NCBI GenBank assembly: GCA_021234155.1
Contig: JAJEKV010000057.1
Span: 2,325,821 to 2,389,820, forward strand
DNA length: 64,000 bases
Reading direction: 5' to 3'
Origin: Isoetes taiwanensis
Taxonomy: Eukaryota; Streptophyta; Lycopodiopsida; Isoetales; Isoetaceae
Shown: one piece after another, positions 10,618-63,778 of the stretch
Layout of the letters: each line of letters begins with the position of its first letter
How positions within the stretch are numbered: the first letter of the stretch is position 1
Notes under the pieces: generated by a model
The model's input: only the letters and a program-made list of their open reading frames with translations
Databases searched by the model: none
What the model was told of the DNA's origin: nothing
Position numbers and translations under genes: made by a program

Positions 10618-11821
10618 TGTGACGCTCCCCGAATCCATACGATGCTCCCATCGTATAAATACGGGAAATTCCCCTCCCATGGCGAATCTGAATCATGCTA
10701 TGACGTGCTTGTAGCCCTCCGGAGACGCAATCCCAAGGAATCACCCTTCGGGACTACTCTGGGTTACATCTTCCCGGTCCGACGAGGCAGATCAGAGAGG
10801 TGTCTCCTCCCCGGGTATGACAGCTCCCTAGGTGTGCTAGAGAACACGTGCCGCATCAGCGACCCCCGCATCCATACCCGACTTACTCCCCTAAATCTAA
10901 AGGTCAGCTCACCAACCCGTTCGAGCCCAGGGGGTCCATATAGGCACCACCCTCCGGCCCAGGGAGTGTCAGACCCATACCTAGCCCACACACGGTGACT
11001 GGCTATAAGAATAGAATAGTCTAGCACACTGTAGGAGTCCCGTAGCCGCGCTAGGCAGGACCCCACCCCCGATTCACCTTCATACCCGTTATTTGATGCT
11101 GAACCACATCATAGCATCTACAACCAGGTTGGCTCTTGTGCACAGGCCGCATTTACTGGGTTTTAAGGGTTCTATCTAGGAGCATCTCTACTTCTAGATG
11201 GCATTTAGGTCTCTACCCCCTTTTTACCCATACAACACAAGAGGAACAGAAAGAAAGCTATCCTTATACATCCATCCATCCATAGCTTTGAATAGAACAT
11301 AAAATAGAGATTAACCATACATCTATCCATACAAGGGTTAATCCTAGCTACCTTCTGAGCATACAAGGGTTAATCCTATGATTATCCAGGACTCCAAGCT
11401 ATCTAGGTACTAACCGGGATCAAGCTAGGTCCACTATCGCTCGGGTTCTCCATCCTGCTGGCTGGAACAAGGTGGAATAGCAGCTCCTCCTCCACCAACC
11501 TCCCCCAATTCGAATTGGGGCAAATGGGGGTACAAAACCCCAATTTGGGTCCCAAATTAGTAACTCTCCCTTGCCCAATCGATTTGGGCCAGGTGGCAGC
11601 TCTAGATTGGTTAATATTAGCTAATTTGGTATTTTAGCCCTTTTTAATATTAGGATAAGCCCTAAATTCGAATTAGGGTTTTGGGTTAGGTTTCCACCTT
11701 TTAATTTAATTATTAACATAGCTAACCTTAGCTTATGAATAATTAATGTGCCATTAATTATTCATAGTGACATGTCATGTATTTATACTTAAATAGGCGT
11801 ATAAATATGTGGAACGTCACA
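10618..11821 (-). repeat. Left (3') LTR of element A, with internal deletion
   Basis: It runs from TGTGACGCTCCCC to GTGGAACGTCACA and is 1,204 bases long against 1,598 for its partner. The missing piece of about 394 bases lies soon after the GGCGAAT near 10685, where this copy jumps to the sequence at about 47045 of the other LTR. Elsewhere the two copies are nearly identical by eye. Confidence 0.85.
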
Positions 11822-21059: not shown

Positions 21060-22663
21060 TGTGACGCTCCCTGAATATATACGACCCTCGGACGTATACA
21101 TACGGGGACTTTCCCCTCCCATGGCGATCGTCTCACCATGAGCAGGGCCCTCCGTCTGTTTCGGGCCTCCTATGAAATGAGGCCCGAAGGAAGGACACGA
21201 AGGGGTCATTCGGCCCACGCCTTCAATGGGACTCCTACGTCGCGGAAGCATGAATACAAGGGTTAGCACACAGCACGAATATACATAAATATCCACCACG
21301 AAGGGTGGCACGTCCATCCAAAATACCAATGACATAGAATATGCATCTAATCCTAAGGAAACACCCAAACCCGGTGTTCTACCCCCTCGAGACTCTAGTG
21401 AGGATCGACCCAATACCGGGCCTCAAGAGATCGGCGAGGCCGAAGTCTTGGCATGGCGTTGGGCGGCATAGAACATCGGCTAGGGTAGTCCACTCCATCC
21501 GCCCCTCTCCGTGCACACTTTGCGGATGGGTCAATTCATGCTATGGCCGCTATAGCCTTAGGAGAGCGCAAACTCGGGGCATCACCCTCCGAGCCTACTC
21601 CGGGTTCATGGCGCTTTGGTCAGATGAGGCAGGGAGGGGGAGGCGTCCCCTTCGAATCACAGTGGTTCCATGGGCGAAGCTAGAGAATACGTCGCGCATC
21701 GGCGACCCCCGTATCCGTGCCGACTTACTGCGCCCTAAATCTACTCAAAGTGCAAGGTGCTCCATACGGATCACACCTTCCCACCGGGAGTGTCGGACCC
21801 ATACCGGCCCTCTACGTGACCAGGGCCATCGGGGCCTAGCCCTTTGTAGGAGTCTCAGGAGCCTTGTATGCTCTTGCGAGACCCCACCCCTCATGTCACC
21901 ACTTTGTGTTCCTTATCCGGTGCTAAGCCGGACCATAGCATCTAGGACCGGTGGGTTCTTGTGCCAAGAAACTAATGGGACTTTTCTGAGGCTATCTAGG
22001 AGCATACTACTATACACGGTTGAGGCCTCTACCCCCCGTAATCCCCCGTTTAGTCGGATGAAACAAAGAACTAACAATCCATCCTTTGAGTAAGAACCGT
22101 AATTGAATATAAAGAGAGCTTGTTTGTACAAACAAGGGTTAGTTTCTATGATGAATTACAAAAAGAGAAGAGAAAAGACGGACACAACCAAGTGTTAACT
22201 AGAATTCACATAGCCACCCACCTGAATTTGGCTGGACTCATTCCCATGGGGCGCCTCCATCTCTGGCGGTTGAAGATTCATTTGTGGCTTCCACGAGGGG
22301 ACGCGGTATGGCGGTTCTCTGCCCGGTGGTTGATGGCTCGGCTCTGGCCTTCCTTGGTCGATCTTCAGGAGTCAATCCCAGGGATAGGGGTCAAGTTGGC
22401 ATCCAAACTTGGCAATCCCCATGCTACCCAATCGATTGGGGCAGGTGGCGCCTTCCCAATTAGTAATTATCCTAATTTACTAGGTTATAGGTTATTATTG
22501 ATAATGTGTTAAATTAGCATAGCTAATTTAATCCTTTGTAAGGTAACCCCCTAGGTTGCAATTAAGTTCCCATACCCCCATGGTAGCGTACCCTTAGGGA
22601 GTGACGTGCTTGTATTTGTACGTGTCCCGTATAGTAGACCGTATAAATACGTGGAACGTCACA
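21060..22663 (-). repeat. Left (3') LTR of element B
   Basis: It begins TGTGACGCTCCCTG and ends GGAACGTCACA, 1,604 bases. Open frames inside it (for example 21341-22093) recur in the other LTR with breaks and are not genes. Confidence 0.85.
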
Positions 22664-22702
22664 TTCTCCCCTCCTTAAAAATAATGCTGTCCTCAGCATT
22701 AG
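22664..22702 (-). promoter_or_regulatory. Polypurine tract and adjacent hairpin of element B
   Basis: The minus strand reads AAGGAGGGGAGAA up to the LTR. A few bases upstream is a perfect hairpin, AATGCTG-AGGA-CAGCATT. The same layout with slight changes occurs in element A, so both parts are probably under selection. Confidence 0.7.
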
Positions 22703-22987: not shown

Positions 22988-23483
22988 TCATTGGCCTTTT
23001 ATTGTCACACGTGCTCCATTAGCGGCGTTGAAGGTGACCTCCCGTTTCTCACAGTCTATGTGGGCCCTAGCAGACGCTAAAAACTCCATTCCCACAATAA
23101 GATCATATTTGCCAATGTCCATTAACTCGGCACCTAAGGCAACTGGTGCACACGGGCAGTACATTTTAAGGTTAATCTGGCGGGCCATGAGTGTGTCGAT
23201 CTTACCGCTAGCTAATGTGACCGGCTTAGGGGGGATCTCAATGTTTCCAGCTGCGTGCACAGGCCATTCTAGGAGAAGCAAAATTATGCGTACTACCCGT
23301 GTCCATCAAAATTATGAAGGGCTTACTGTCTACTTGGCCTATTGTAGAAATAACAGAAGGCTGACTTTCAGCGTTGCCTGTTTCTATAGCGGCAAGAATA
23401 TGAGACGCACCATGAATGTACTCGGGAGCCTCGTCCTCCGCAGCAAGATTGGACTCCAAATCTTCCCAATCCAGGTCGGCCAT
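22988..23483 (-). pseudogene. Ty3-type aspartic protease (retropepsin), frameshifted
   Basis: In one minus-strand frame I read a catalytic ILMDTGSTHNF motif after a QPSVISTIGQ lead. In a second, shifted frame the domain continues with ASGKIDTLM and then DLIVGMEFLASARAHIDC, the flap and C-terminal hallmark of Ty3 retropepsins. The enzyme would cut the gag polyprotein. The break near 23260-23281 means this copy cannot make the full domain. A reverse transcriptase would normally follow, but only about 300 bases remain before the polypurine tract. Confidence 0.75.
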
Positions 23484-24687
23484 GGCCAGTTGAGCGTCTA
23501 GCGTGGCGTCGCGGACAATTACGCATGAAGTGTCGGGGCCTCATCATCGGTAGCATGCCTTATCCCGGCGGAGCTGTTCTCTGGCCTCTTTAGGAATGGA
23601 CTGTAAGAGGCCCCTAATTTCCTTACCAGCATTGTTCTGCTTATCCGGCGTGCTAAAAGCAACTTTCTTCTCCTGGCGTCCATAGGAATTGTGCTGAGAG
23701 GGCCCCGGACTTGGCGAACGGGGTTTGTAAGGTGTGGACGGCCGTGGCTGCGAGTAAGGAGCAGGTCGCGGATACTGGCTCCTTGGCGTGTCTTCCTCAA
23801 GGCTTAATGCCTTAGCTTCCGCCTCTGCCACTGACTTTGGGTCGATGGCCTTGACCATTCGTTTAATGGATGGGGCCAATCCTTCAATGTAGCCCTCTAC
23901 TGCTCTTTTTTCATTCATTCCTGGCACGTACAACCTCAAACGCATGAATTCGTCAGTGTAGGCCTGCACGGACATGCCCTTCTGTTCCAACTTTGTAGAA
24001 GGTGCGAATTGTTGGCATTTGTGCGCACGGGCACGTAATGCGATTTAAAAGCCTTAGCAAACTTCACGAACTTGCATCCGCTCCTATCGGTGTTTAGCTT
24101 TCGGGTAACCCTTCCACCAAAAAGGGGCTCCGGTAAGGTTAGGTGGTGGCGACCTTCCCTGTATCCTTCTCCAGTCATTCCATAGGACTTCCCGAACTCC
24201 TTCATTTTCGTCCAACCAAGATTCCGCATTCAAGCCTCCTCTGGATTTCCCATCAAAACCGAGCCAACTTCCGATTCTTCCATATACTAGTGATAGTCGT
24301 ATCAACAGCTTTTTTCGGTATTCCTTATCCTTACGCCTTGAATGGTCACCATGCGATAGCGAGGGAACCCGAAGAACCCGAAGTGGTTGAATGTGAGGAA
24401 GCGGCGCTATCCTTAGAGGAACCGATGGCGCTTAGCATGAGTCCTCCCCAATGCAGTGCGGGGGCTAGCTCTGGGAGGAGATGGCATTTGCAGTGAGTGG
24501 ACTCAATGGTATGAGGTAATTCCGGTCCGTCCTCCTGAATATGTGGCAGTGGATTGGTATGCAATACATAAGCCTGTAACTCGCCGAGTTGCCTTTTCAT
24601 TAACATCAATTCCTGTTCAGGGTTGAGCCTACTGGCGTTGGAGGGTGTTTGCCAAGCGGCGTTACGTACACCGTCTATAGGAGTCAT
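23484..24687 (-). pseudogene. gag capsid/nucleocapsid region, several frame breaks
   Basis: An ATG at 24687 opens a frame with a QELMLMKRQLGELQAYV helix. After a frame break there is AESWLDENEG and PFWWKG, the usual landmarks of Ty3 gag (AE-WL and WW). Then, at 23990-23544, come EQKGMSVQAYTDEFMRL, YIEGLAP and a proline/serine-rich linker. It ends in a damaged zinc knuckle in which CYRC and HFMRNCP stand in different frames. The protein would package the element's RNA. Frame changes near 24330, 24070-24000 and 23540 show decay. Confidence 0.7.
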
Positions 24688-24919: not shown

Positions 24920-25408
24920 CTAGGGGTTGGCGAAGGGGTACAGGATCGCGTAGCGGGTACTCTCCCGTACAGCTCGGACGAGTTTATAGCGTGCCCAGGC
25001 TTGGACAATGATTGCTTGGTACTCCCATGTTGGGCTGATAATCAGAAGGTTAAAGAGCCTTCGCATCGCATAAAAGAGTTGCCAAAGATGGTCGTTGGCG
25101 TCCTCAAAGGCTTCGTGCCTGGTCATATTCCAATAGTCCCAGGTACGACACAGGGTCATCTTCAGATCCTCGAAAGCTCGATCCCTAAGGATGTTAACTA
25201 TCTCCAGCCCTTTGTCAGGGTCATAGAGTTCCCCTGGTGGCGGTGGTTCAGTTTCATAGCCTTCCTCCCACTCTGGATATTCACCATATCTCTGGCCATA
25301 GTCCTGGTCTGGCGGCCCGGGATCGTCCCTCCTAACCATGTCGGTGATTCTTTCCTCATACTCCCAAATGGTTTCCTCTGCAACATAGTTGGAATGAATA
25401 GAGAACAT
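24920..25408 (-). CDS. Unknown 162-residue open frame in element B
   Basis: It starts with a true ATG at 25408 and is uninterrupted. The N-terminal third is acidic and rich in D, E, P and Y; the rest is rich in tryptophan, leucine and arginine with helix-like spacing (for example HLWQLFYAMRRLFNLL). I do not recognise the family. It lies between gag and the other extra frames in the same orientation. It might be a captured exon or an element-specific accessory protein. Confidence 0.4.
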   Translation of the reverse strand: MFSIHSNYVAEETIWEYEERITDMVRRDDPGPPDQDYGQRYGEYPEWEEGYETEPPPPGELYDPDKGLEIVNILRDRAFEDLKMTLCRTWDYWNMTRHEAFEDANDHLWQLFYAMRRLFNLLIISPTWEYQAIIVQAWARYKLVRAVRESTRYAILYPFANP

Positions 25409-25624: not shown

Positions 25625-26449
25625 TCAGGAACTAGGCCCTGCCTCTTTATCCTTAGCCCTAGGAGGTGGTGGAGGCGGTCGGTGTCGCAGGAGAGCTACC
25701 CCAGGGTCCACGGTGGCCGCCGCAACAGATGCAACCTCTGGTGGATAGGCAACGGCCAATGGGGCTGCTGTGAGGAGCTTCATGCCCATCCAAGGCGCAA
25801 TATCCTGGCCCAAGGCCGTAAGGGCAAGATCCCGTCGTACGAGTACATACGTAAACGTACGATAGGGAAGCTTCTTGTGGCCGGCAAGTGTAGAAAGTGC
25901 ACGGAGGGCCCACCATGAAGCTTCAGCCTCCGGCCCTAAATCCCGGGCTATGAAGAGAACCTGCCCGTATTTGAAGGCCGACAAAAAGAAACGGGTGAGG
26001 TGGTTACCCAGCACCTTCCCTTGCGGAGTTTCAGATGCGGCCACTTCCTTATCCAAGTCCATGGGGACTTCTTCCTCCTTGAGCTCCTGTTGCTCCTCCT
26101 TCTTATGCGCAGGGTTATGATATAAATCTTCACCCTCATCATCTGAGTCGGAGGGAACCTCAACCATATTAATGTTTGGGACGTGAGGTCCCATAGCCGT
26201 GAAGGCATCTGCTGCAGGTTGCGAAGCTGGTTCCTGCATCACGAAGTCGCGAAGACGCAATAGAGTCTCCGCCGGCTCTAGGGTCTCCTGACGGAACTGC
26301 AGCAACTGGTGCACCTCCGGAGGAAGCTCGGTAGAAGTGAAATCGATGAAATCATCCATACAATACTCCGCAAGCTCATAAAGTACATGGTCTTTGCGCT
26401 TGCGCCTAAATCCGGCCACCACATGATACGTCCAGATAATATCATCCAA
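25625..26449 (-). CDS. Unknown open segment of 274 codons in element B
   Basis: The frame is open for 274 codons without a good ATG at its beginning; the first methionine is about 30 codons in. The middle is strongly acidic with serine (SDSDDEGED and runs of E and K) and the C-terminus has a seven-proline run followed by a basic KDKEAGPSS end. The first 80 residues are predicted helical by composition. I do not recognise the protein. It may be one exon of a longer captured gene or a decayed accessory protein. Confidence 0.35.
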   Translation of the reverse strand: MDDIIWTYHVVAGFRRKRKDHVLYELAEYCMDDFIDFTSTELPPEVHQLLQFRQETLEPAETLLRLRDFVMQEPASQPAADAFTAMGPHVPNINMVEVPSDSDDEGEDLYHNPAHKKEEQQELKEEEVPMDLDKEVAASETPQGKVLGNHLTRFFLSAFKYGQVLFIARDLGPEAEASWWALRALSTLAGHKKLPYRTFTYVLVRRDLALTALGQDIAPWMGMKLLTAAPLAVAYPPEVASVAAATVDPGVALLRHRPPPPPPRAKDKEAGPSS

Positions 26450-27223
26450 GAGAAGGTATTCCCTTTGGTGATAAATAAACTGGAAGGCCGTCTAACCCCG
26501 ACAAGCCTATAGATTGGTCACGGCGGTGGTAGCTCCTCTGCTAGCTCTTTCCAGCGGGCAAAGTAAGCCCATTCCTATATGCTCGTCATCCCCCTCCTCG
26601 GAGGGTTCCGCACCGGTGGCTCTTCTCTGCGAGGCAAGGTTTCATCCTCAACGTATTGGTCCATGAGGATGGCTAGAGCAAAAGTAGCTTCGAGATCTGC
26701 TGCCCACGATGTTGGACCACGGTGAGGTGCTTACCCCATCGGAGTTTCCCCTTCAAGGCGTCATAGGCATGTGTGTCCCGCCTAGCATCTGCCGAACTAT
26801 CTCCGCTCCAAATACAAGTAGGGAGGATCCCTAGAGGAATACGAGAGGAAGCATTTCCTCCATGTAAAAGTCAAGGAATCCGGCATAGTCCGGATGCATC
26901 TTGCATGTTGGCAAGGAGATCTATGCGTTGGCATAGCAAAGGCTGCCAGGTCGAAGGGAACCTGTGGATCCCATTTCTCTCCATCAAGGTACCCAAGGCG
27001 ACGGCGAGCGGCGGCGGCGCCATGGCGCTAGAAGGGAGGAAAGGAAAAAAGCGTTTAAAATAACTCTCTGGTCCCCTTTTAAACCCTCTTAATAAAGCTG
27101 ACGTCAGCATTTTATTTTAAATTTAACATGGAGAAAAAAACATTAAACTTTTAATTCAAAATAAAAGCTTCTTTATTAATTATCACAAAAAAATATGTAC
27201 AAATGCGGATCCCCGCAAGTAGG
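26450..27223 (-). other. Broken coding-like stretch between unknown frames of element B
   Basis: A minus-strand segment starting with MAPPPLAVALGTLMERNG near 27021 runs open to about 26871 and is then broken by stops and frame changes. No family recognised. Confidence 0.35.
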
Positions 27224-27631
27224 CTAAGGTTGCTCCCCCCGTATCCTACGGGCGAGGGCTAAATCCTTAGGCATTATGGTGACCCTCTTTGCGTGGATAG
27301 CGCAAAGGTTGGCGTCACCAAAAAGTGCTACCAAGTAGGCTTCAGCAGCCTCTTGGAGCGCCAAAATTGCAAAGGTCTGGAAACGGAGATCGGTCTTAAA
27401 TTGCTGTGCGATCTCCCGTACCAGCCTCTGGAAAGGCAGCTTTCTGATCAGAAGGTCCGTGGACTTCTGAAATTTGCGGATCTCCCGCAATGCCACGGTA
27501 CCGGGTCGGAACCGATGAGGCTTCCGCTGCGGCCGAGGCCCCGACGATGTTGGCACCGTCTTAGCCCCAAAGAATCGGTGGGCGTTGTCAACCCATTCTT
27601 TGCCTCCGGTCGGAACTGGTCTTCTTCCCAA
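27224..27631 (-). CDS. Histone H3-like protein inside LTR retrotransposon B
   Basis: From [15 protein letters not shown] (codon 37 of the open frame, near 27523) to the stop at 27226-27224 the frame is a complete histone H3 fold. It includes [46 protein letters not shown] and ARRIRGE. I count about 13 substitutions in 94 core residues against a plant H3.3 recalled from memory, with no gap. Histone-fold loop 1 has the canonical H3 length, so it is not a CENH3. The 36-residue tail is abnormal: TGGK and AKTVPT echo H3, but the K4 region, the ARKS around K9 and the ARKSAPT around K27 are absent. The open frame has no ATG at its start; an upstream lysine-rich frame is shifted and may be the original tail. 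It lies between the primer binding site and gag, in the element's sense orientation. It could be a transduplicated host gene or a domesticated accessory protein. Confidence 0.85.
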
Positions 27632-27918
27632 AAGCCCCGGCGCCGGTCTTTAACTTCTCCTTGTATTGACTGTCGGCCTTATGGGCGACTCCCTTCTTCC
27701 GGTGCTTAGCGATTACGTCGCGTCGGTTTTGGGTGCAGGTTACTCGGATGCACCTCCCCTTTGGTCCGGGCTGGTCTTGTCGGTCCCGTTCCTCTGCTCA
27801 AGCTTTCTCCGTTCCTCCCGCGGGCTCTCCTCGAGATCTTCTTGCATCACGGGCAAAAGCCGGGCCGGCGACGCGGCGATCCGGTTCGGCATGGTAAATT
27901 TGGTGGTCGCAGCTCATA
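27632..27918. other. Arg/Lys-rich broken segment upstream of the H3-like frame
   Basis: A minus-strand frame here reads as a basic, lysine-rich stretch (for example AKHRKKGVAHK) and runs out of phase into the H3-like frame, where it stops. This may be a displaced N-terminal region. Confidence 0.35.
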
Positions 27919-28461
27919 TCAACTGGATCGTGGTCGGGTAATCGGCATCGATATCGAGGGGATCGGGGCTCCCCACATGAAGCTCTGAGAGCCTTCATGC
28001 CATTGGTACGGGGGAACCTCAATTGCCCTGCCATCTATAACGCCAAAACCGTCCCCTAAATACCGGTACTCCCTTCCACGCGTAGCGGTATCTGCCCGCT
28101 CTATCTCCCGACGGTCATCCTCCCTGGCGAAGGCCCTGATGCGGTCAGCTTCTGTCCTGATATCCTCCTCTTCGGTATGGCCCTCTTGCTCGGGAGGATA
28201 GAACTTAATCAGCATCATAACCATATCAGGTTGCTCGACAAGGGTATAGGAAAGCTGGCGAAGGTTCAGCCGGATCAGGAATGGCTCCGAGAAGTGATAG
28301 ATAGGATAGGGAATCCTATCGTTATTCTCAAAACGGTTCACCAACTCATCCAGAAGGAGGTCGACGAAAACCGGGTCGGTAGCCATGTGCCGGGCAACCA
28401 AGGCATAGATCTGCACTATGCTTAGGGTCTTTGGGTCTATGGTGCTCTTGGTATTGGCCAT
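27919..28461 (-). CDS. Unknown 181-residue open frame of element B
   Basis: The ATG at 28461 (MANTKSTIDP) opens 181 codons; the frame is also open upstream to 28629. The protein begins with helix-like segments (YALVARHMATDPVFVDLLLD), followed by an acidic and basic coiled-like part (EEEDIRTEADRIRAFARED) and a glycine-rich end. No family is recognised. It is the first substantial frame after the primer binding site, a place where Ogre-type elements also have an extra frame; a relation to that protein cannot be shown. Confidence 0.4.
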   Translation of the reverse strand: MANTKSTIDPKTLSIVQIYALVARHMATDPVFVDLLLDELVNRFENNDRIPYPIYHFSEPFLIRLNLRQLSYTLVEQPDMVMMLIKFYPPEQEGHTEEEDIRTEADRIRAFAREDDRREIERADTATRGREYRYLGDGFGVIDGRAIEVPPYQWHEGSQSFMWGAPIPSISMPITRPRSS

Positions 28462-29188: not shown

Positions 29189-29201
29189 GGCTCTGATACC
29201 A
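29189..29201 (-). promoter_or_regulatory. Primer binding site of element B (initiator tRNA-Met)
   Basis: The minus strand reads TGGTATCAGAGCC one base after the LTR. This is the common plant retrotransposon site for the 3' end of initiator tRNA-Met. Confidence 0.9.
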
Positions 29202-29202
29202 C

Positions 29203-30803
29203 TGTGACGCTCCCTGAATATATACGACCCTCGGACGTATACATACGGGGACTTTCCCCTCCCATGGCGATCGTCTCACCATGAGCAGGGCCCTCCGTCT
29301 GTTTCGGGCCTCCTATGAAATGAGGCCCGAAAGAAGGACACGAAGGGGTCATTCGGCCCACGCCTTCAATGGGACTCCTACGTCGCGGAAGCATGAATAC
29401 AAGGGTTAGCACACAGCACGAATATACATAAATATCCACCACGAAGGGTGACACGTCCATCCAAAATACCAATGACATAGAATATGCATCTAATCCTAAG
29501 GAAACACCCAAACCCCAGGTTCTACCCCGGCTCAGACTCTAGTGAGGATCGACTGACGGCTGGGCCTCAAGAGATCAGCAGACCGAGTCTTGGCATGGCG
29601 TTGGCTGGCATAGAACATCGGCTAGGGTAGTCCACTCCATCCGCCCCTCCTGTGCACACTTTGCAGATGGGTCAATTCATGCTATGGCTTCGCTTATAGC
29701 CAGGAGACGCAAACTTCGGGGCATCACCCTCACGAGCCTACTCCAGGTTCATGGCGCCCGGTCCGATGAGGCAGGTGGGGAGGCGTCCCCTTCGAGAATC
29801 ACAGTGGTTCCATGGGCGAAGCTAGAGAATACGTGCGCATCGGCGACCCCGTATCCGCATTCGAGCTTACTGCGCCCTAAATCTACTCAAAGTGCAAGGT
29901 GCTCCATACGGATCACACCTTCCCACCTGTGGAGTGTCGGACCCATACCCGGCCCCACGTGACCGGCCATCAGGCCCTAGCCCATTGTAGGAGTCTCGGG
30001 GAGCCTTGTATGCTCTTGCGAGACCCCACCCCTCATGTCACCTTGTGTTCCTTATCCGGTGCTAAGCCGGACCATAGCATCTAGGACCGGTGGGTTCTTG
30101 TGCACAAAGCCGCAACTAATGGGACTTTACAGCGCTATCTAGGAGCATACTACTATACACGGTTCGAGAGGCCTCTACCCCCGTAATCCCCCCCGTTTCA
30201 GAGTCGGATGAAACAAAGAACTAACAATCCATCCTTTGAGTAAGAACAGAATTGAATATAAAGAGAGCTTGTTTGTACAAACAAGGGTTAGTTTCTATGG
30301 TGAATTACAAAAAGAAGAGAGAGAAAGACGGACACAACCAAGTGTTAACTAGAATTCACATAGCCACCCACCTGAATTCGGGCTGGACTCATTCCCATGG
30401 GGCGCCTCCATCTCTGGCGGTTGAAGATTCAAACCGTGGCTTCACAGGGGACGGCCGGGTATGGCGGTTCTCTGCAGGTGGTTGATGGCTCGGCTCCGGC
30501 CTTCCTTGGTCGATCTTCAGGAGTCAATCCCAGGGATAGGGGTCAAGTTGGCATCCAAACATGGCAATCCCCATGCTACCCAATCGATTGGGGCAGGTGG
30601 CGCCTTCCCAATTAGTAATTATCCTAATTTACTAGGTTATAGGTTATTATTGATAATGTGTTAAATTAGCATAGCTAATTTAATCCTTTGTAAGGTAACC
30701 CCCTAGGTTGCAATTAAGTTCCCATACCCCCATGGTAGCGTACCCTTAGGGAGTGACGTGCTTGTATTTGTACGTGTCCCGTATAAATACGTGGAACGTC
30801 ACA
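29203..30803 (-). repeat. Right (5') LTR of element B
   Basis: It has the same ends as the left copy and is 1,601 bases long. Relative to the left LTR it shows many one- to five-base insertions and deletions and few plain substitutions. Confidence 0.85.
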
Positions 30804-33483: not shown

Positions 33484-33845
33484 TTCGTCGGTTTCTATTG
33501 CTTACGGTTTTCAAGCTGCGGCTTCCGACCATGTCTCAAGTGCAAGCTGAATAAAACTTCGACCTCCATAAGCGTAAACCCTACAATAACCTGGCAAGCG
33601 CCACGGGGGTTTACGTTTTGGAGGCCATACCCTGGTCAGATTGGACCAGGATCTTGCACAATGTCATGAGGTAGTGGGAGGGCGTTGAAGCCAGAAGACG
33701 GAGCCCTAAAGCCTTCCAGAAGAAGTTCGACCTAAAGATCCTCTCTGGAGGGTTCAGCCCGGGCGACGGGCAATTGTCCCCCCCAGGCGTGATCGACGCC
33801 AAGCGGACTCGAAACATCGACATTACCCTGGAGACCAACTTTCGT
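33484..33845. repeat. Long direct repeat, copy 2
   Basis: This partner of 32683-33050 leads directly into the minisatellite. Confidence 0.75.
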
Positions 33846-33849
33846 GGGC

Positions 33850-35262
33850 AGAACATGCCAACTAGGCTCCAACATGCCAAGTTGGCTCCAACGTGCCACC
33901 TAGGCTCAAGCATGCCAAGGTGGCTCAATTATGCCACCTAGGCTCCAACATGCCACCTGGGCTTCAACATGCTACGTAGGCTCCACCATGCCAACTAGGC
34001 TCCACCATGCCTCGTGAGGCATGCCACCCAGGCTCCAACGTGCCACCCAGGCTCCAACATGCCACCTAGGCTCCAACATGCCACCTAGAATGCCACCTAG
34101 GCTCCAACATGCCACCTAGGCTCCAACATGCCACCCTAGGCTCCAACATGCCACCATCGGCTCCAAATGCCACGGGCTTCAACATGCCACGTAGGCTCCA
34201 ACATGCCCCGTGAGCTCTAACATGCCACCTAGGCTCAAACATGCCACCCACGGCTCCAACATGCCACCTAGGCTCCAACATGTCAAGGTGGCTCCAACAT
34301 GCCACCTAGGCTCCAACATGCCAAGGTGGCTCCAATATGCCACCTAGGCTCCAACACGCCACCTACGCTCCAACATGCCACGTGGGCTCCAACATGCCAC
34401 CTAGCATGCCACGTGTAGGCCGCAACATGCCACACGGCTCCAACATGCCACGTGAGCTCTAACATGCCACCTAGGCTCCAACATGCCACCCACGCTCCAA
34501 CATGCCACCCAGGGCTCCAACATGTCAAGGTGGCTCCAACATGCCACCTAGGCTCCAACATGCCAAGGTGGCTCCAACATGCCACCTAGGCTCCAACACG
34601 CCACCCACGGCTCCAACATGCCACGTGGGCTCCAACATGCCACCTAGCATGCCACGTGAGGGTCGCAACATGCCACCACAGGCTCCAACATGCCACGTGA
34701 GCTCTAACATGCCACCCTAGGCTCCAACATGCCACCCACGCTCCAACATGCCACCAGGGCTCCAACATGTCAAGGTGGCTCCAACATGCCACCTAGGCTC
34801 CAACATGCCAAGGTGGCTCCAACATGCCACCTAGGCTCCAACATGCCACCACGGCTCCAACATGCCACGTGGGCTCCAACATGCCACCTAGGATGCCACC
34901 TAGGCTCCAACATGCCCACGGGCTCCAACATGCCACGTGAGCTCCGCTCCAAAGATGCCACATAGGCTCCAACATGCCAAGTTGGCTCCAACGTGCCACC
35001 TAGGCTCAAGCATGCCAAGGTGGCTCAAATATGCCACCTAGGCTCCATCATGCCACCAAGGCTTCAACATGCCGCGTAGGCTCCAACATGCCACCCTAGG
35101 CTCCAACATGCCAAGGTGGCTCCAACATGCCACCTAGGCTCCAACATGCCACCCACGCTCCAACATGACCACGTGGGCTCGGGCGTGCCACGTGGGCTCC
35201 AACATGCCGGGGGGATGGCTTAGACATGCCACGTGGGCTCCAAATGCCACCTAGGCCGGGAA
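33850..35262 (+). repeat. Minisatellite, 19-bp unit GGCTCCAACATGCCACCTA
   Basis: About seventy units fill 1.4 kb. Variants replace CCTA with AAGGTG, ACGTG, CCCACG and similar. Blocks of roughly 230 bases, marked by a CATGTCAAGGTG variant and a CCTAGCATGCCACGTG junction, repeat at about 34.28, 34.50 and 34.73 kb, so there is a higher-order period. Open frames through it (repeated NMPPRLQHA or CWSLGGMLEP) are by-products of the repeat. Confidence 0.9.
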
Positions 35263-46120: not shown

Positions 46121-46558
46121 AAAAAAATGACGTTAAATTTTATACTACGCGTATTTTATAAGGCGGAACAGTATAAGGGCGCTGTTTGTTAGCGTTATAC
46201 GCTCATAACTTTTGATTTTAAACCTTTTGGGTTCTAGCCTTGGGGTCACCATTTTAACCTCGGAAATGTGCCCCTAGGGTATTTGGGATGTGCCCGAGCC
46301 ATTGGAACCATTTTCGCCTTCATCCGAGCTACCTACAAAAAGTTATGGCCCATCTAAACCTGGGTCCTCTAATTATACCATTTCCACACCAAATTCACCC
46401 TAAAGTTCCTAAATCTCAACAATTTATTACACAAACCTAGCCTAAAGACTAAATCACTGAGAAATTAGGCAGTTTAGCTAAACTTAAACTCCCACGTAAC
46501 TACCGAACTAACGGTTTAGAATTTGGTCAGTGCTATAATTCCGGTCAACCAAAATCAT

Positions 46559-46571
46559 GGCTCTGATACCA
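46559..46571 (-). promoter_or_regulatory. Primer binding site of element A (initiator tRNA-Met)
   Basis: The minus strand has TGGTATCAGAGCC one base from the LTR, identical to that of element B. Confidence 0.9.
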
Positions 46572-46572
46572 C

Positions 46573-48170
46573 TGTGACGCTCCCCAAATCCATACGATGC
46601 TCCCATCATATAAATACGGGAAATTCCCCTCCCATGGCGAATCCATCACCACGGAAAGGCCCTCCGTCTAACTCGGACCACTTGTGATGGCCAAGTGTCC
46701 GGGTGAAGGACACGGAGGTGTCATTCGTCCCACGCCTTCTATGGGAATCCTATATAGCGGAAGCGTACATACATGTTAGCACCTAGCAACAATACTAACA
46801 AATAATATACCACCACGAGGGGTGGCCCATCATCATCAATATAACTAACAACAGAATACTAACATAACAAAGAAAATACACCATAACTAAGGGCTCTACC
46901 CCAGACTCAGACTCCATGGGGACGACTGACGGTCAGGGCCTCAAGATAACAGCAGACAGAGGTATAACATGGCGTTGGCTGGCATAAGACAATGGCTAGG
47001 GTTGTCCACTCCATCCGCCCCTCCTGTGCACACTTTGCAGATAGGCTGAATCATGCTATGACGTGCGTGTAGCCCTCTGGAGACGCAATCCCAAGGAATC
47101 ACCCTTCGGGACTACTCCGAGTTACATCTCCCCGGTCCGATGAGGCAGGTCAGAGAGGCGTCTCCTCCCCGGGTATGACGGCTCCCTGGGTGTGCTAGAG
47201 AACATGTGCCGCATCCGCGACCCCCGCATCCATACCCGACTTACTCCCCTAAATTTAAAGGTCAGCTCACCAACCCGTTCGAGCCCAGGGGGTCCATATA
47301 GGCACCACCCTCTGGCCCAGGGAGTGTCAGACCCATACCCAGCCCACACACGGTGACTGGCTATAAGTCTAGCACACTGTAGGAGTCCCGTAGCCGCGCT
47401 AGGCAGGACCCCACCCCCGATTCACCTTCATACCCGTTATTTGGTGCTGAACCACATCATAGCATCCACAGCCAGGTTGGCTCTTGTGCACAGGCTGCAT
47501 TTACTGGGTTTTAAGGGTTCTATCTAGGAGCATCTCTACTTCTAGATGGCATTTAGGTCTCTACCCCCCTTTTACCCATACAACACAAGAGGAACAGAAA
47601 GAAAGCTATCCTTATACATCCATCCATCCATAGCTTCGAATAGAACATAAAATAGAGATTAACCATACATGTATCCATACAAGGGTTAATCCTAGCTACC
47701 TTCTGAGCATACAAGGATTAATCCTATGATTATCCAGGACTCCAAGCTATCTACGTACTAACCGGGATCAAGCTAGGTCCACTATCGCTCGGGTTCTCCA
47801 TCCTGCTGGCTGGAACAAGGTGGAACAACAGCTCCTCCTCCACCAACCTCCCCCAATTCGAATTGGGGCAAATGGGGGTACAAAACCCCAATTTGGGTCC
47901 CAAATTAGTAACTCTCCCTTGCCCAATCGATTTGGGCCAGGTGGCAGCTCTAGATTGGTTAATATTGGCTAATTTGGTATTTTAGCCCTTTTTAATATTA
48001 GGATAAGCCCTAAATTCGAATTAGGGTTTTGGGTTAGGTTTCCACCTTTATAATTTAATTATTAACATAGCTAACCTTAGCTTATGAATAATTAATGTGC
48101 CATTAATTATTCATAGTGACGTGTCATGTATTTATACTTAAATAGGCGTATAAATATGTGGAACGTCACA
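46573..48170 (-). repeat. Right (5') LTR of element A
   Basis: A full-length copy of 1,598 bases, ending GTGGAACGTCACA and followed by GAAGC. Confidence 0.9.
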
Positions 48171-50235: not shown

Positions 50236-52801
50236 TCCTACAGGGGCTAGCGCAGTGGATTACCTTTTGGCCAGTAAGCAAAACTCGGTGAAAGACTTTG
50301 TGATCCTAGAGAAAGAGATAGAATCTGACCATGTTGGTCTATTATTTGATCTGTTTGGACAGGTAAGCGGGCAGCCCATCATAGATGCTTTCAAACCAAG
50401 AATCAAGCTGGATTTCAGAAACAAGGATAAATACCAGAAACATTTGAGCAATATGCTAGAATGCTTACAATGGACTGGAGCTCCTGAGGTAGACTCCCAA
50501 AATTTGACAAATATAATGTTGGAGGCAGCTAGCTTGGGGTTTGGTGTTACCAAAAAACGACCAGGTAGACGTCTTCATAATAGTTGGTGGGATGATGATT
50601 GTAAGAAGGCGAAGGCAGCCCTACCAAAAACATGCAGGATAAAACCGAAGTGGTACAAGAAGCTTATCAAAGAGAAGAAGAACATTTTTCATGCAAAAAA
50701 GCAATCTGATCTTAGTCACTTACTCCATGAGAATCCTAGATTGTTTTGGAAGAACCTGCAAGGTAAACAAGCTACAACCAATTTAGATGTAGAAGACCTT
50801 ATCTCGTTGGTCAAGAAGATATATTTCAATGCTAATGCTGGCGAGATGCCAATCATAAGCATCACAGAAGATATCTTTGATGTAGGTGACGTGGAGATGC
50901 AACTTAATCGCATGAAGAATGGGAAAGCCTCGGACTTAATGGGCATATCAAATGAACTTATGAAATGGGCAGATGGTGAATTAGTCCACAAGGTAATGAT
51001 CTAATGAACATGGGCCGAAATGGTTTACCAAAATCATGGAGAGAGTGCAAGATTGTTCCAATCCATAAGTCGGGCTGCAAGAAGGATGTGCATAATTATC
51101 GCACCATAATGATAGGCAGCATGTATTCTAAACTTTTAGGTGGCCTGCTAGAGCAAAAAATCAGTGAATGGGCAGAACGTCATGGTAAGAGAGCTTACTG
51201 CCAGGCAGGTTTCAGGAAAAAACACAATACCTTGGACCATCTCCTTACTCTGAGGGTTCTATTTGAGCAAGCTAAGAAACCCAGACAAGCACTCTATCTG
51301 GCCTACATTGATTTCTCGAAGGCCTTTGACACAGTACCTCGGGAAAAATTGTGGATAAGAATGGAACAGCTCGGTGTTCCACTTGTCTGGAGAGGTGCAA
51401 TAGCCCGCTTATATGAAGAGGTATTAGCCAAATTGTCTTCTGAGCTACCACATGAGATTCGTAACACAATGGGAGTCCGACAAGGATGCCCTTTGTCGCC
51501 GACTCTGTTAGGGCTTTATATAGATGAATTGGAAGATTGGCTCTGAGGCAGGGGGGGGACAAGCTGGAGCAAAACTAGGAAGTTTTGTAGTGCAATTGTT
51601 ATTGCGCCGATGATGTAGTGCCGATAGCGAGATTCTCAAGCGTGCCTACAAGAGCATTTGAACAATCTGAGTTCCTTTTGCACTTCCCACCGGATGAAAG
51701 TAAACCTTTCAAAACCAAGATTATGGTGATTGAACCGTGAAGCATCCCAATTTCATGTATCAAGATGAGCAGCTAGAAGTGGTGGACATTATAAATACTT
51801 GGGATTAGAGATTTGCTCGAACTATAAATGGAAGGAATGTGTAAAAACGCATCATAGGAGGTAAGACCGCTTTATACTCTATGCTTTCTAAGTGTCACAA
51901 AGTCGTCCTTATCCAATTGGGGTCTCAAGAAGATGCTTTTTAAAACCCTAGTTCAGATAAGAGGTTGTATGGTGCTCCCATTTGGGGCCTTCTATTCACA
52001 CCGAACATGGAACCAGATAGAGCAAGTAATGAAAATATTCATTCGGGAGGTGTTGGGTGTGCGTAAGCAATTCCATATGCTATCTTCTTGCGTAAAAGGT
52101 CTTCTCCCATTAGAAGCTGAGGCTTTGTGTCAAACCATGAATTTCCTAAACAGATTGAAGAATATGGATGCTGGCCGATTACCAAAAAGGGCAATGGACT
52201 TACCATCAAATTGGTTTAAGGAGGTACATGATTGGGCTGGTCGGTGGGGGATAATGGCGAAAATTGGGCGGATTCGAATCGGTACTAGAGAGTTGGTACA
52301 GGAAGCATTTATTAGAAAGTTATGGGAAAAACGTGGTTCTAAGATGGACTTTTACCAGAAGGAAGTAAATCCTATACTTGTATATACTCACGCAGAATAC
52401 TTGGATGCCCCTATTTCTAAACAGTTGAGAAAAACAATTGCAAGATACAGATCTGGTTCGCACTATTTGAAGGTTGAGACAGGTCGTTGGGCAAAGCAGA
52501 TCCGTGAAGAGAGAACTTGCGAGATCTGCAAAACAGACGAAGTGGAAGATGAGGCGCATGTTTTCCTGCGGTGTTCTGCATATCAGGGGATACGGGACCA
52601 ATATGACATATGTCAACCAAATTTTCATTCTCTATTATCATTAGATCCTAGATTACTAGGCTGTTATATGACATCAGTGGAATCTCATAGAGATTTTCTA
52701 CTCAAAACACAACAATAGTGTGATACATTGTACTTTGTTGCTTCATGATCTTTAGGGTCCAACGAAGCATGATAATATAATAATATAATAATAATAATAA
52801 T
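50236..52801 (+). mobile_element. Non-LTR retrotransposon (LINE, I/Jockey-like), 5'-truncated and frameshifted
   Basis: It starts inside the endonuclease domain (VDYLLASKQNSVKDFV and an ESDHVGLLFDL end). A linker follows, and then a reverse transcriptase. I read RMKNGKASDLMGISNELMKW, KIVPIHKSGCKKDVHNYR, ALYLAYIDFSKAFDTVP, MGVRQGCPLSP and a CADDVVPIA active-site region (normally YADD). The last frame (51933-52718) ends with a CEICKTDEVEDEAHVFLRC zinc cluster. Breaks lie near 51002, 51546 and 51930. The (TAA)n tail and the animal-like domain spelling fit the I/Jockey side of LINEs better than the common plant L1. The encoded protein would nick DNA and copy its RNA at the nick. Confidence 0.85.
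52771..52801 (+). repeat. (TAA)n tail of the LINE
   Basis: A run of TAA/ATA units about 55 bases after the final stop. TAA-repeat tails mark I-clade elements. Confidence 0.75.
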
Positions 52802-61569: not shown

Positions 61570-63011
61570 TCAACTTTCTACAGCGAGTACAAAGGCTTCC
61601 AAATTCTTAGATGAAGAACCGTCTGGCATCAATGCCCTCTTTGCTACATCACTCATCTCCTTAGCCCTTTTCCTAAATTCCTTTGCTTCTTCCCCACTCA
61701 TCAGTCTCAATATGAGCTTCACAATCTCTTCCTTACGCACAATACCATCCTTTCCTTTCTCAAACCGCACCCCATTCTTCCACACATCCGCTATCATCTT
61801 ACAATTCACAAATTGGTCTCCTAACTGAGGCCAGCCCATTATAGGAACCCCTAGGCAAATACTCTCAAATGTAGAATTCCATCCAGAATGAGACAAAAAG
61901 CCTCCAACAGCAAAATGCTTCAAAACTTCCAACTGTGGAGCCCAAGAAATGACCATCCCTTGCTCCTTAGTCCGGATCACAAATTCATTTAAAAAGATTT
62001 GGGCAGATTCCTCGACCAGGCCTGGCCGAAGAACCCACAAAAAAGGTTGGCCGCTTGCTTCCAGTCCTTCAACGAGCTCTTTCACCTGCTCCACTGCAAC
62101 CTGTGCAACGCTGCCAAAAGAAACATATAATACAGAATTTGGAGCCCTCGTATCCAGCCATTCCAGGCATGAAGAATCCTCTTTTAGCATAGCCGGACGT
62201 AATCCCTCGCTTTTCTCGAACATTGGAAGCACCGGACCTATGGCTATTGCGTTGGGCATTTGCTCTAACAACGCCTTGTCTAACTCTTCAACATTGTTAA
62301 CAAGTATCCATTTCGTATTTACCATAAGCTCCGGCATGAACTTGACCAGTGGACAAGCTTCTCTCTCTGCCTTGTCCTGTAGATAATGGGGCAGATCTGG
62401 AAGATGAAGAACAGGGAGCCCTGGCACTATATACTCCGATTTTTCACCTATTCAATTTGCAAGTGAATTATACCCACATAAGAAATAAAGTCACAAATCC
62501 AAAACAAAAAAGATCACAAACCATATTTCTCGATTTCTGCAACAAGCCTCCGTATGTGTCGATCTACCAGAGCTGAACCAAGGTAGGCGGTCCAGTAACA
62601 AGCACAAGGGACGTCAAAACGTTCCCCCAAATCCAAAGCCCAGTGGAAGAAAGGGTCGAAGATGATACAAGAGGGCCGGGAGTTGGAGTGGATCAAGTTT
62701 TTGACAATACCATCTGCTGCATTTAGAAAATCCGTCTGATCAGAGGCTATGAAATCACGAACTCTGTCTCGGCTAATTCCTTGTGCGTAGGGTTCTGGGA
62801 GATGAGCTATGCTGAGGTTTTGGTGAGAATCTTGGAGGTCTTGAAGAATGCGAGAACTGCTGGCGAGGGTCACGGTGGAGCCAAGGGAGATTAGACGCCT
62901 GGCCAGATGAAGAGACGGATTCAAATGCCCTTGAGCTGGGAAGCATAAGAGTAAGAAATGTTTGCCATAGCCAATTCCGGTAGGTCGCTCCATTGCAAAT
63001 ACTAGGCCCAT
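61570..63011 (-). CDS. Family-1 UDP-glycosyltransferase, two exons, intact
   Basis: Exons 63011-62522 and 62447-61570 join across a 74-bp GT-AG intron in phase 1 and give 455 residues, the normal length. A second ATG at 62993 is an equally possible start. The N-terminal half binds the acceptor: KHFLLLCFPAQGHLNPSLHL holds the conserved histidine after the first strand (His in PAQGH), and CIIFDPFFHWALDL follows. The C-terminal half binds the sugar donor through a PSPG box from WAPQLEVLKHFAVGGF to WPQLGDQ. The final glutamine suggests UDP-glucose. One oddity is HSGWNS where HCGWNS is usual. The enzyme would add a sugar to a small lipophilic molecule in the cytosol; the acceptor cannot be told from sequence. 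No stop or frameshift was seen. Confidence 0.9.
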
Positions 63012-63778
63012 GCTCACACATCCTCCTTATATCTTTCTCACATATTTAATTAAACCTCTCTAGGGGTATCATACCAAGTATTTCATATTTTTCTTACTAG
63101 AAAATTGCCAACCTTCCCTTCGGTGCGCAGTTCATGTGCTTATACATAAGCAAAAATGCAACATAACACCACGTTTTAAAAAGCACTTTGTTTCAAAGGA
63201 TATCTTATAACTCTGTTTTCAAGGAGTGAAACGCATCTTATAACTCCTTTACACCATCTGGTGTGGAAGACAGTCGGCCACCCTTCGCCCAATTGTCCCA
63301 CGTGACACCCTTAATTAAGTGAAAATGCAAAAAATTCTGCCATGTGGCAGAATTTGAATTATTTGAGCATTCCATGTGCAAAAGACAACAATGAAAGCAT
63401 ACCATACAACCATAGTTACGAAACACGGCCACGGGAAACGCAACGGGTCCCCAAATTTTAGAGAACGGAAACGGCAACGGAACACGGAAACGGATACCAC
63501 AGGAATATTCCCTAAAGATACTTTGAATTTATAAAAAAATAAAAAAAAATATTATATAAAAAATCAGCAATGGTTATGAAAAAAATTAATTGTTAGAATT
63601 TCCTAGCCCTGCCGGACGACCAACACAGTAGAATGTGTCCTGATAGACGCCAATAGCGAAACAGGCCAAGGAAGAATACATAAGCCTAGTCTCTCAGTGT
63701 TAAAGAAGGTTTTGTATCCCAGACCCATTATATTCTTCCATTAGAGTAAGTAATCCCCATTAATTCATTCACCTGATA
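63012..63778. other. Upstream region of the UDP-glycosyltransferase gene
   Basis: On the minus strand an AATTAAATATG word near 63040-63050 could serve as a TATA box, but this is weak. A stretch at 63420-63495 repeats ACGGAAACGG-like words. No gene recognised. Confidence 0.3.

Follow-up and report, generated by a model that had tools for sequence, protein, structure and literature searches.

A histone H3 core under purifying selection at the end of the first open reading frame of a chromovirus family in Isoetes taiwanensis

In the window, i.e., the whole stretch of 64,000 nucleotides of Isoetes taiwanensis DNA that was analysed (GCA_021234155.1, contig JAJEKV010000057.1, positions 2,325,821 to 2,389,820 of the forward strand), an LTR retrotransposon on the minus strand contains a frame that encodes a histone H3 core. 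Based on Pfam, PDB and tblastn comparisons, this H3-bearing frame (27224..27631, read on the minus strand from 27631 to 27224) was determined to be the C-terminal part of the element's ORF1; it is 135 amino acids long, has no stops and holds the histone core at 27526-27227 on the same strand. The Pfam Histone family (PF00125) was matched at 6.6e-42 over residues 33-131 of the frame, and the top PDB match was Histone H3.3 (6.2e-54), with which the frame aligned without a gap from KPHR to residue 134. The Pfam and PDB matches and the core alignment all identified residues 37-135 as an H3 fold, which bears out the original prediction of a complete H3 core with neither gap nor stop. By tblastn, the window H3 matched the H3 of another copy (L035) at 99%. 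Identity with CENH3, which has a longer loop 1, was ruled out, since there is no loop insertion and the core is ungapped against H3.3, the reference used for this comparison.

The element around this frame is bounded by a 5' LTR (29203..30803, minus strand) and a 3' LTR (21060..22663, minus strand) that pair with each other and show 113 differences in 1579 aligned columns (K2P 0.075; BLAST identity 93.6%). The primer binding site TGGTATCAGAGCC, which we take to be of the initiator-Met tRNA type, was read from the sequence next to the 5' LTR (29189..29201, minus strand), and the polypurine tract TTTTAAGGAGGGGAGAA adjoins the 3' LTR (22664..22680, minus strand). No target-site duplication was found in the flanks read at the outer LTR ends. 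All of the coding parts lie on the minus strand as well. The N-terminal domain of ORF1, which starts with MANTKSTID (27922..28461), is closest to the older subfamily of the element; it is stop-free over 28461-27946, where it matched residues 1-171 of the L035 ORF1 at 84% (tblastn), and loses the frame at its 3' end. The basic linker of ORF1, which is of the AHKA type (27606..27722), is in a different frame in the window copy, and the N-terminal part of ORF1 upstream of H3 is severed by frame changes. ORF2, which has about 467 amino acids when intact, is broken (25625..27018; tblastn 71.7%, six stops) with an open part at 26449-25625, while the conserved ORF3 of 162 amino acids (24920..25408) is open. 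The damage to gag and protease that had been noted beside the H3 frame was also found: the Ty3 capsid type gag (23706..24303) was recovered as tblastn pieces with three stops apiece, the open one matching Ty3_capsid at 2.8e-05, which is under the curated cut-off, and the protease as two tblastn pieces (22991..23405). No match to reverse transcriptase (RT), RNase H (RH) or integrase (INT) was obtained in the window copy, which is a dead element, broken and devoid of pol. It is also a mosaic. From about 28.43 to 27.83 kb, its closest match is the older subfamily (94% and 81% to L050 vs. 81-82% and 71-73% to the younger copies), while its H3 block is 96-99% identical to the younger copies, the blocks after H3 are 87-97% identical to them and, in the part upstream of 28.43 kb, copies of the younger type are equally near or nearer. 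Because this stretch of ORF1 is closest to the older subfamily and the other parts compared are equally close or closer to the younger, recombination between the lineages is suggested.

Searching the I. taiwanensis assembly (1,658,258,908 bases in 1110 contigs) revealed that the window copy is one of many. When the window H3 was used as the query, about 60 of the 150 candidates that were scored, out of 9271, lay in open frames of at least 400 amino acids (counted by eye). A rice H3.3-like query, for which 150 of 9125 candidates were scored, found 15 host-like places at 273-282 bits, followed by element-like places from 193 bits. An element-specific H3 peptide of ten residues, written as a degenerate DNA pattern, occurred at 696 places, and its reversed control at none. 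The architecture was examined at 20 places of about 10 kb each, ten of which were copies that were also present as shorter loci and 19 of which could be oriented by their H3. The order of the element is LTR, primer binding site, ORF1 with H3, ORF2, ORF3, gag-PR-RT-RH-INT (PR, protease) and chromodomain, although in single copies parts are often absent or broken. Of the 40 distinct copies, 19 have an ORF1 that is open throughout as a single frame of 409-420 amino acids with the H3 core at its C-terminus. Such an ORF1 consists of an N-terminal domain (about 190 residues), a charged coil with a basic linker (together about 120 residues) and the full H3 core, and in the 19 full-length copies the linker is in frame between the N-terminal domain and H3. 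The other copies with H3 at the same place that the original prediction called for therefore exist, and the splicing of an upstream basic frame to H3, which it had considered, is needless because the N-terminal domain runs into H3 in a single frame in these 19 copies.

The remaining parts of the element place it among known retrotransposons. The first 12 bases of the primer binding site were present in 15 of the 19 oriented and annotated copies. In one copy (L044), a single open frame contains all of the gag-PR-RT-RH-INT domains in order, with the integrase core slightly under its cut-off. At the integrase end of another (L045:8004-8399), a chromodomain (PF00385) was matched at 2.5e-10, above the cut-off, and a chromodomain-like stretch is also readable in L037. 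From overlapping partial copies, we estimate that a full copy has about 13 kb. The family is a high-copy Ty3/gypsy chromovirus, an assignment that was based on the LTRs, primer binding site and polypurine tract, the order of the domains and the chromodomain. An association of the N-terminal domain with H3 was also seen from the other side: with the N-terminal domain as the query (150 of 3692 candidates scored), H3 lay at most 2.5 kb downstream in at least 90 of the 150 when compared with 196 places from the H3 searches and 33 of the 100 listed motif places. On the contigs with a complete motif list, 11 of the 13 copies of the N-terminal domain were followed by the exact H3 motif. The 60 copies without a listed H3 had open frames that were scattered from 231 to 494 amino acids with no evident class of a single length.

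Convincing relatives were found neither for the N-terminal domain nor for the two frames that follow ORF1. The N-terminal domain was also searched against a large protein set. None of 38 candidates was a relative with an E of 0.1 or less, and none of 3059 with an E of 0.01 or less; Pfam gave no hit for three copies even with the limit set at E 10, the PDB gave a single match that was not meaningful (E 0.88), and NCBIfam gave two matches far under the cut-off (E 0.12-0.14) in one of two copies. The structure predicted for the window N-terminal domain from its lone sequence had a pLDDT of 42.6 and was unusable. ORF2 and ORF3 were compared with the family libraries, and ORF2 with the PDB as well. 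Neither matched a Pfam family; ORF2 likewise had no counterpart in the PDB up to an E of 1, and its NCBIfam match (E 0.00057) was far under the cut-off. Complete or partial matches to ORF3 were obtained in 17 of the 19 copies examined (dN/dS 0.076-0.156), and both ORF2 and ORF3, which lie between ORF1 and gag, are conserved across copies in a pattern indicative of purifying selection.

The selection on the H3 core was analysed using pairwise Nei-Gojobori estimates for up to ten younger and nine older copies. For the H3 core, dN/dS was 0.042 among the younger copies, 0.048 across the two groups and 0.039 among the older copies. The corresponding values were 0.225, 0.041 and 0.057 for RT; 0.289, 0.079 and 0.175 for gag; 0.617, 0.109 and 0.166 for PR; 0.343, 0.084 and 0.190 for INT; 0.319, 0.132 and 0.125 for ORF2; and 0.076, 0.052 and 0.098 for the N-terminal domain of ORF1. 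Fetching the copies by their H3 similarity selects for an intact H3 and lowers its dN relative to the other genes, most strongly within the younger group, where the other genes include decayed copies and the lead of H3 is exaggerated. This sampling cannot explain the whole constraint on H3, because in a neutral simulation at a distance of 0.8 the number of amino-acid changes was 60 or more in all 20,000 trials, while a mean of 7.8 nonsynonymous differences was observed between the groups, and because of the sampling that used the N-terminal domain as the query. Its substitution pattern thus shows that strong purifying selection acted on the H3 core during the multiplication of the element. The test of dN/dS that had been proposed for the core came out at about 0.04-0.05, as is expected of a frame kept by selection, and the H3 is a component of the element family, being neither confined to a sole copy nor evolving neutrally. 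Between the subfamilies, dS was 0.79 for H3, 0.96 for ORF2 and 1.5-1.8 for the N-terminal domain, gag, PR, RT, RH and INT, the values above 1 being rough. Because the dS of H3 is lower than that of the N-terminal domain and RT, exchange between the subfamilies or synonymous constraint may act on H3.

A conserved core could also be explained by youth. The original prediction held a recent capture of a host gene to be an equally good account, in which the H3 would be a passenger, a recently caught host gene or pseudogene that has merely had no time to change. In favour of this account, the element H3s are 83-89% identical to the host H3.3-like gene (L052), i.e., about 11-17 of the 99 core residues differ in 37 distinct copies, a range into which the roughly 13 substitutions first counted in the window also fall. 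These 37 were compared out of 40 distinct copies after two without an intact core start (L026 and L049) and one in which the filter found no H3 frame (L048) had been dropped. The synonymous sites, on the other hand, are saturated relative to the host gene (pS of at least 0.87 in 47 of 47 rows, ten of which are duplicate fetches), and, when placed in a tree together with 22 further H3s, the 37 element H3s form one clade with a support of 100/99 and with fixed residues of its own. Moreover, the subfamilies are separated by a dS of about 0.8 for H3 and of 1.6-1.8 for the N-terminal domain and RT, and yet the dN of H3 is near 0.04. Because of the single clade and the synonymous saturation, a recent capture or a stray pseudogene was rejected, and we consider it extremely improbable. 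Given these two features and the positions fixed in all copies, the capture of H3 is old and, as far as the sampled copies show, single. A fungal source was considered, as the fungal protein P0041 shares the motif DLALA, but the element residues 110, 120 and 130 are plant-like and this source is not favoured.

The differences from the host gene are unevenly distributed. Ten positions (54, 86, 87, 89, 102, 105, 107, 124, 125 and 135) were changed in all 37 copies; seven of these were fixed to a single residue (Y54F, S86T, H87F, G102A, E105G, T107A and I124L), while at V89, Q125 and A135 one copy each had a different new residue. Using the lists of DNA-contact sites (including S86) and H3-H3 bundle sites that we take to apply, 47 of 703 cells were changed at the former, 37 of them by S86T, and 39 of 370 at the latter, 37 of them by T107A. 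Both classes were changed more rarely than the remaining core sites (441 of 2627 cells). Positions 86-89 presumably lie next to or at those that separate plant H3.1 from H3.3, and the fixed changes there hint at an altered choice of chaperone. The ten sites that were changed in all copies suggest altered contacts with chaperones or H4, not a loss of the fold.

The tail was replaced. In eight copies, no similarity of the linker to H3 residues 1-36 above shuffling was found (p 0.16-0.75), the canonical tail with its K4, K9 and K27 contexts was absent, and a retained H3 tail was therefore rejected. Since there is no tail similarity beyond shuffling, the ORF1 H3 is best described as an H3 core domain inside a fusion protein and not as a canonical H3. 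The missing tail that the original prediction described thus stands as regards overall similarity to residues 1-36, and has to be qualified as regards single contexts: phmmer paired AKTVP of the window frame with the K27 context, so that a lysine is kept at a K27-like place, and ARK[S/T] was found in the linker of seven of the eight readable older copies (among L041-L050). This motif occurred in none of the 23 younger copies (among L003-L029), all of which have AHK[A/S] instead. ARKS is the K9 and K27 context of H3 and was seen in the host gene; the ARK[S/T] of the linker may be a remnant, a mimic or due to chance.

The most likely use of ORF1 is that of a chromatin tether. We would give a probability of about 0.5 to the full reading that, in this fusion with an old and selected H3 core, the core pairs with host H4, the N-terminal domain replaces the tail and the protein acts as the tether. 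The ORF1 core would behave as an H3 core in pairing with host H4 and would enter (H3-H4)2 tetramers or nucleosomes, in which the N-terminal domain would thereby stand in for the H3 tail. In nucleosomes or on H3-H4 chaperones, the protein might then help to draw the nucleoprotein complex of the element to chromatin and would work beside the integrase chromodomain, a module that is normally tied to the targeting of marked chromatin. This tether step is argued from domain logic, because the N-terminal domain is without known relatives and the fold predicted from its lone sequence is unusable. The presence of S86T at a presumed DNA-contact site in every copy counts against a nucleosomal reading. 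A bolder version, which we regard as tentative and rather doubtful, is that ORF1 supplies an element-made nucleosome subunit that would replace H3 on the element or target DNA and present a private domain instead of the tail; the ARK[S/T] of the older lineage could then be bound by the element's own integrase chromodomain or by host readers, a self-made address that is absent from the younger lineage.

Two other uses of a conserved H3 core have to be weighed against the tether. Deposited on the DNA of its own element, the ORF1 protein might form nucleosomes without a K9/K27 tail and so keep the copy expressed. Such anti-silencing, which corresponds to the escape from heterochromatin raised in the original prediction, would agree with the conserved core, with a tail no more similar to H3 1-36 than shuffled sequence and with the methylatable-looking context that differs by lineage (AHK[A/S] in 23 of 23 younger vs. 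ARK[S/T] in seven of eight readable older copies), whichever of the two is ancestral. The older lineage, however, kept ARK[S/T] and multiplied too, and a lysine persists at the K27-like place. In our judgement, the tether is favoured because the integrase of the family has a chromodomain and because no route is evident by which a histone acting in trans could single out the DNA of its own element; anti-silencing is accordingly unlikely. It is also rather unlikely, if slightly less so, that ORF1 works outside host nucleosomes as a component of the particle, where the core and basic linker would bind nucleic acid, compact the cDNA or sponge up H4 and chaperones. The linker is indeed very basic, ORF1 sits before gag, and the separate ORF1, ORF2 and ORF3 are all conserved, but the contact surfaces of H3, as given by the site lists that we assumed, are conserved beyond the general needs of nucleic-acid binding and gag-pol has a capsid domain of its own.

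Compared with known systems, the family resembles plant chromoviruses in its LTRs, its primer binding site of the presumed initiator-Met type, its gag-PR-RT-RH-INT order and the SH3 fold and chromodomain of the Tf2-1 type at the integrase end, and differs from them in having three additional ORFs between the primer binding site and gag, the first of which ends in an H3 core. We know of no plant chromovirus with a histone. An extra ORF upstream of gag is shared with the plant Ty3/gypsy elements of the Ogre/Tat type, in which, however, the extra ORFs are not known to be histones and the lineages are not known to have a chromodomain. The element H3 is like plant H3.3 (PDB 7ux9 chain E and the host gene) in that the core is ungapped from KPHR on and Leu90 is kept, and unlike it in the ten positions changed in every copy and in the approximately 310 residues of other sequence that replace the tail. 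Histones are also made by mobile or viral genomes in the case of the bracovirus histone H4, which has an extended tail, and the Marseillevirus histone doublets, but these are other histones of DNA viruses and not an ORF of a retroelement. An H3-like frame that is 36% identical to the H3 part of ORF1 was observed in a contig from a viral collection (L051). To our knowledge, no retroelement with a histone ORF has been described.

Retroelements can read chromatin marks by means of chromodomains; a family in which an H3 core has long been retained by selection would be a supplier of chromatin, and the long-kept H3 suggests that some of a transposon's chromatin might be made by the transposon itself. 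The family may offer a natural experiment in which the parts of H3 that tolerate change under maintained selection can be recognised, and it allows a direct test of the idea that a transposon, in the role of a histone, can write chromatin or tether itself to it. A limited literature search found no histone-bearing retroelement, and the family can tentatively be regarded as a chromovirus with a new and unexpected component. The word "histone" occurs 0 times in the main text of the I. taiwanensis genome paper (PMC8566536).

Several other features were observed in the window. A fragment at 46497-47254 is 73-76% similar to part of the LTR of the H3 family and is perhaps an LTR of a relative. Direct repeats of 1.1 kb at 10688-11821 and 47046-48170, which are 96.6% identical and 36 kb apart, may be LTRs or else copies of a different element. 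Positions 33800-35150 are taken up by a long array of 19-base tandem repeats, the reverse transcriptase frames at 50255-52718 (RVT_1 8.9e-19 at 51004-51543) probably belong to a non-LTR retrotransposon, and a host gene for a UDP-glycosyltransferase lies at 61570-63017 (UDPGT 1.6e-23 at 61573-62427).
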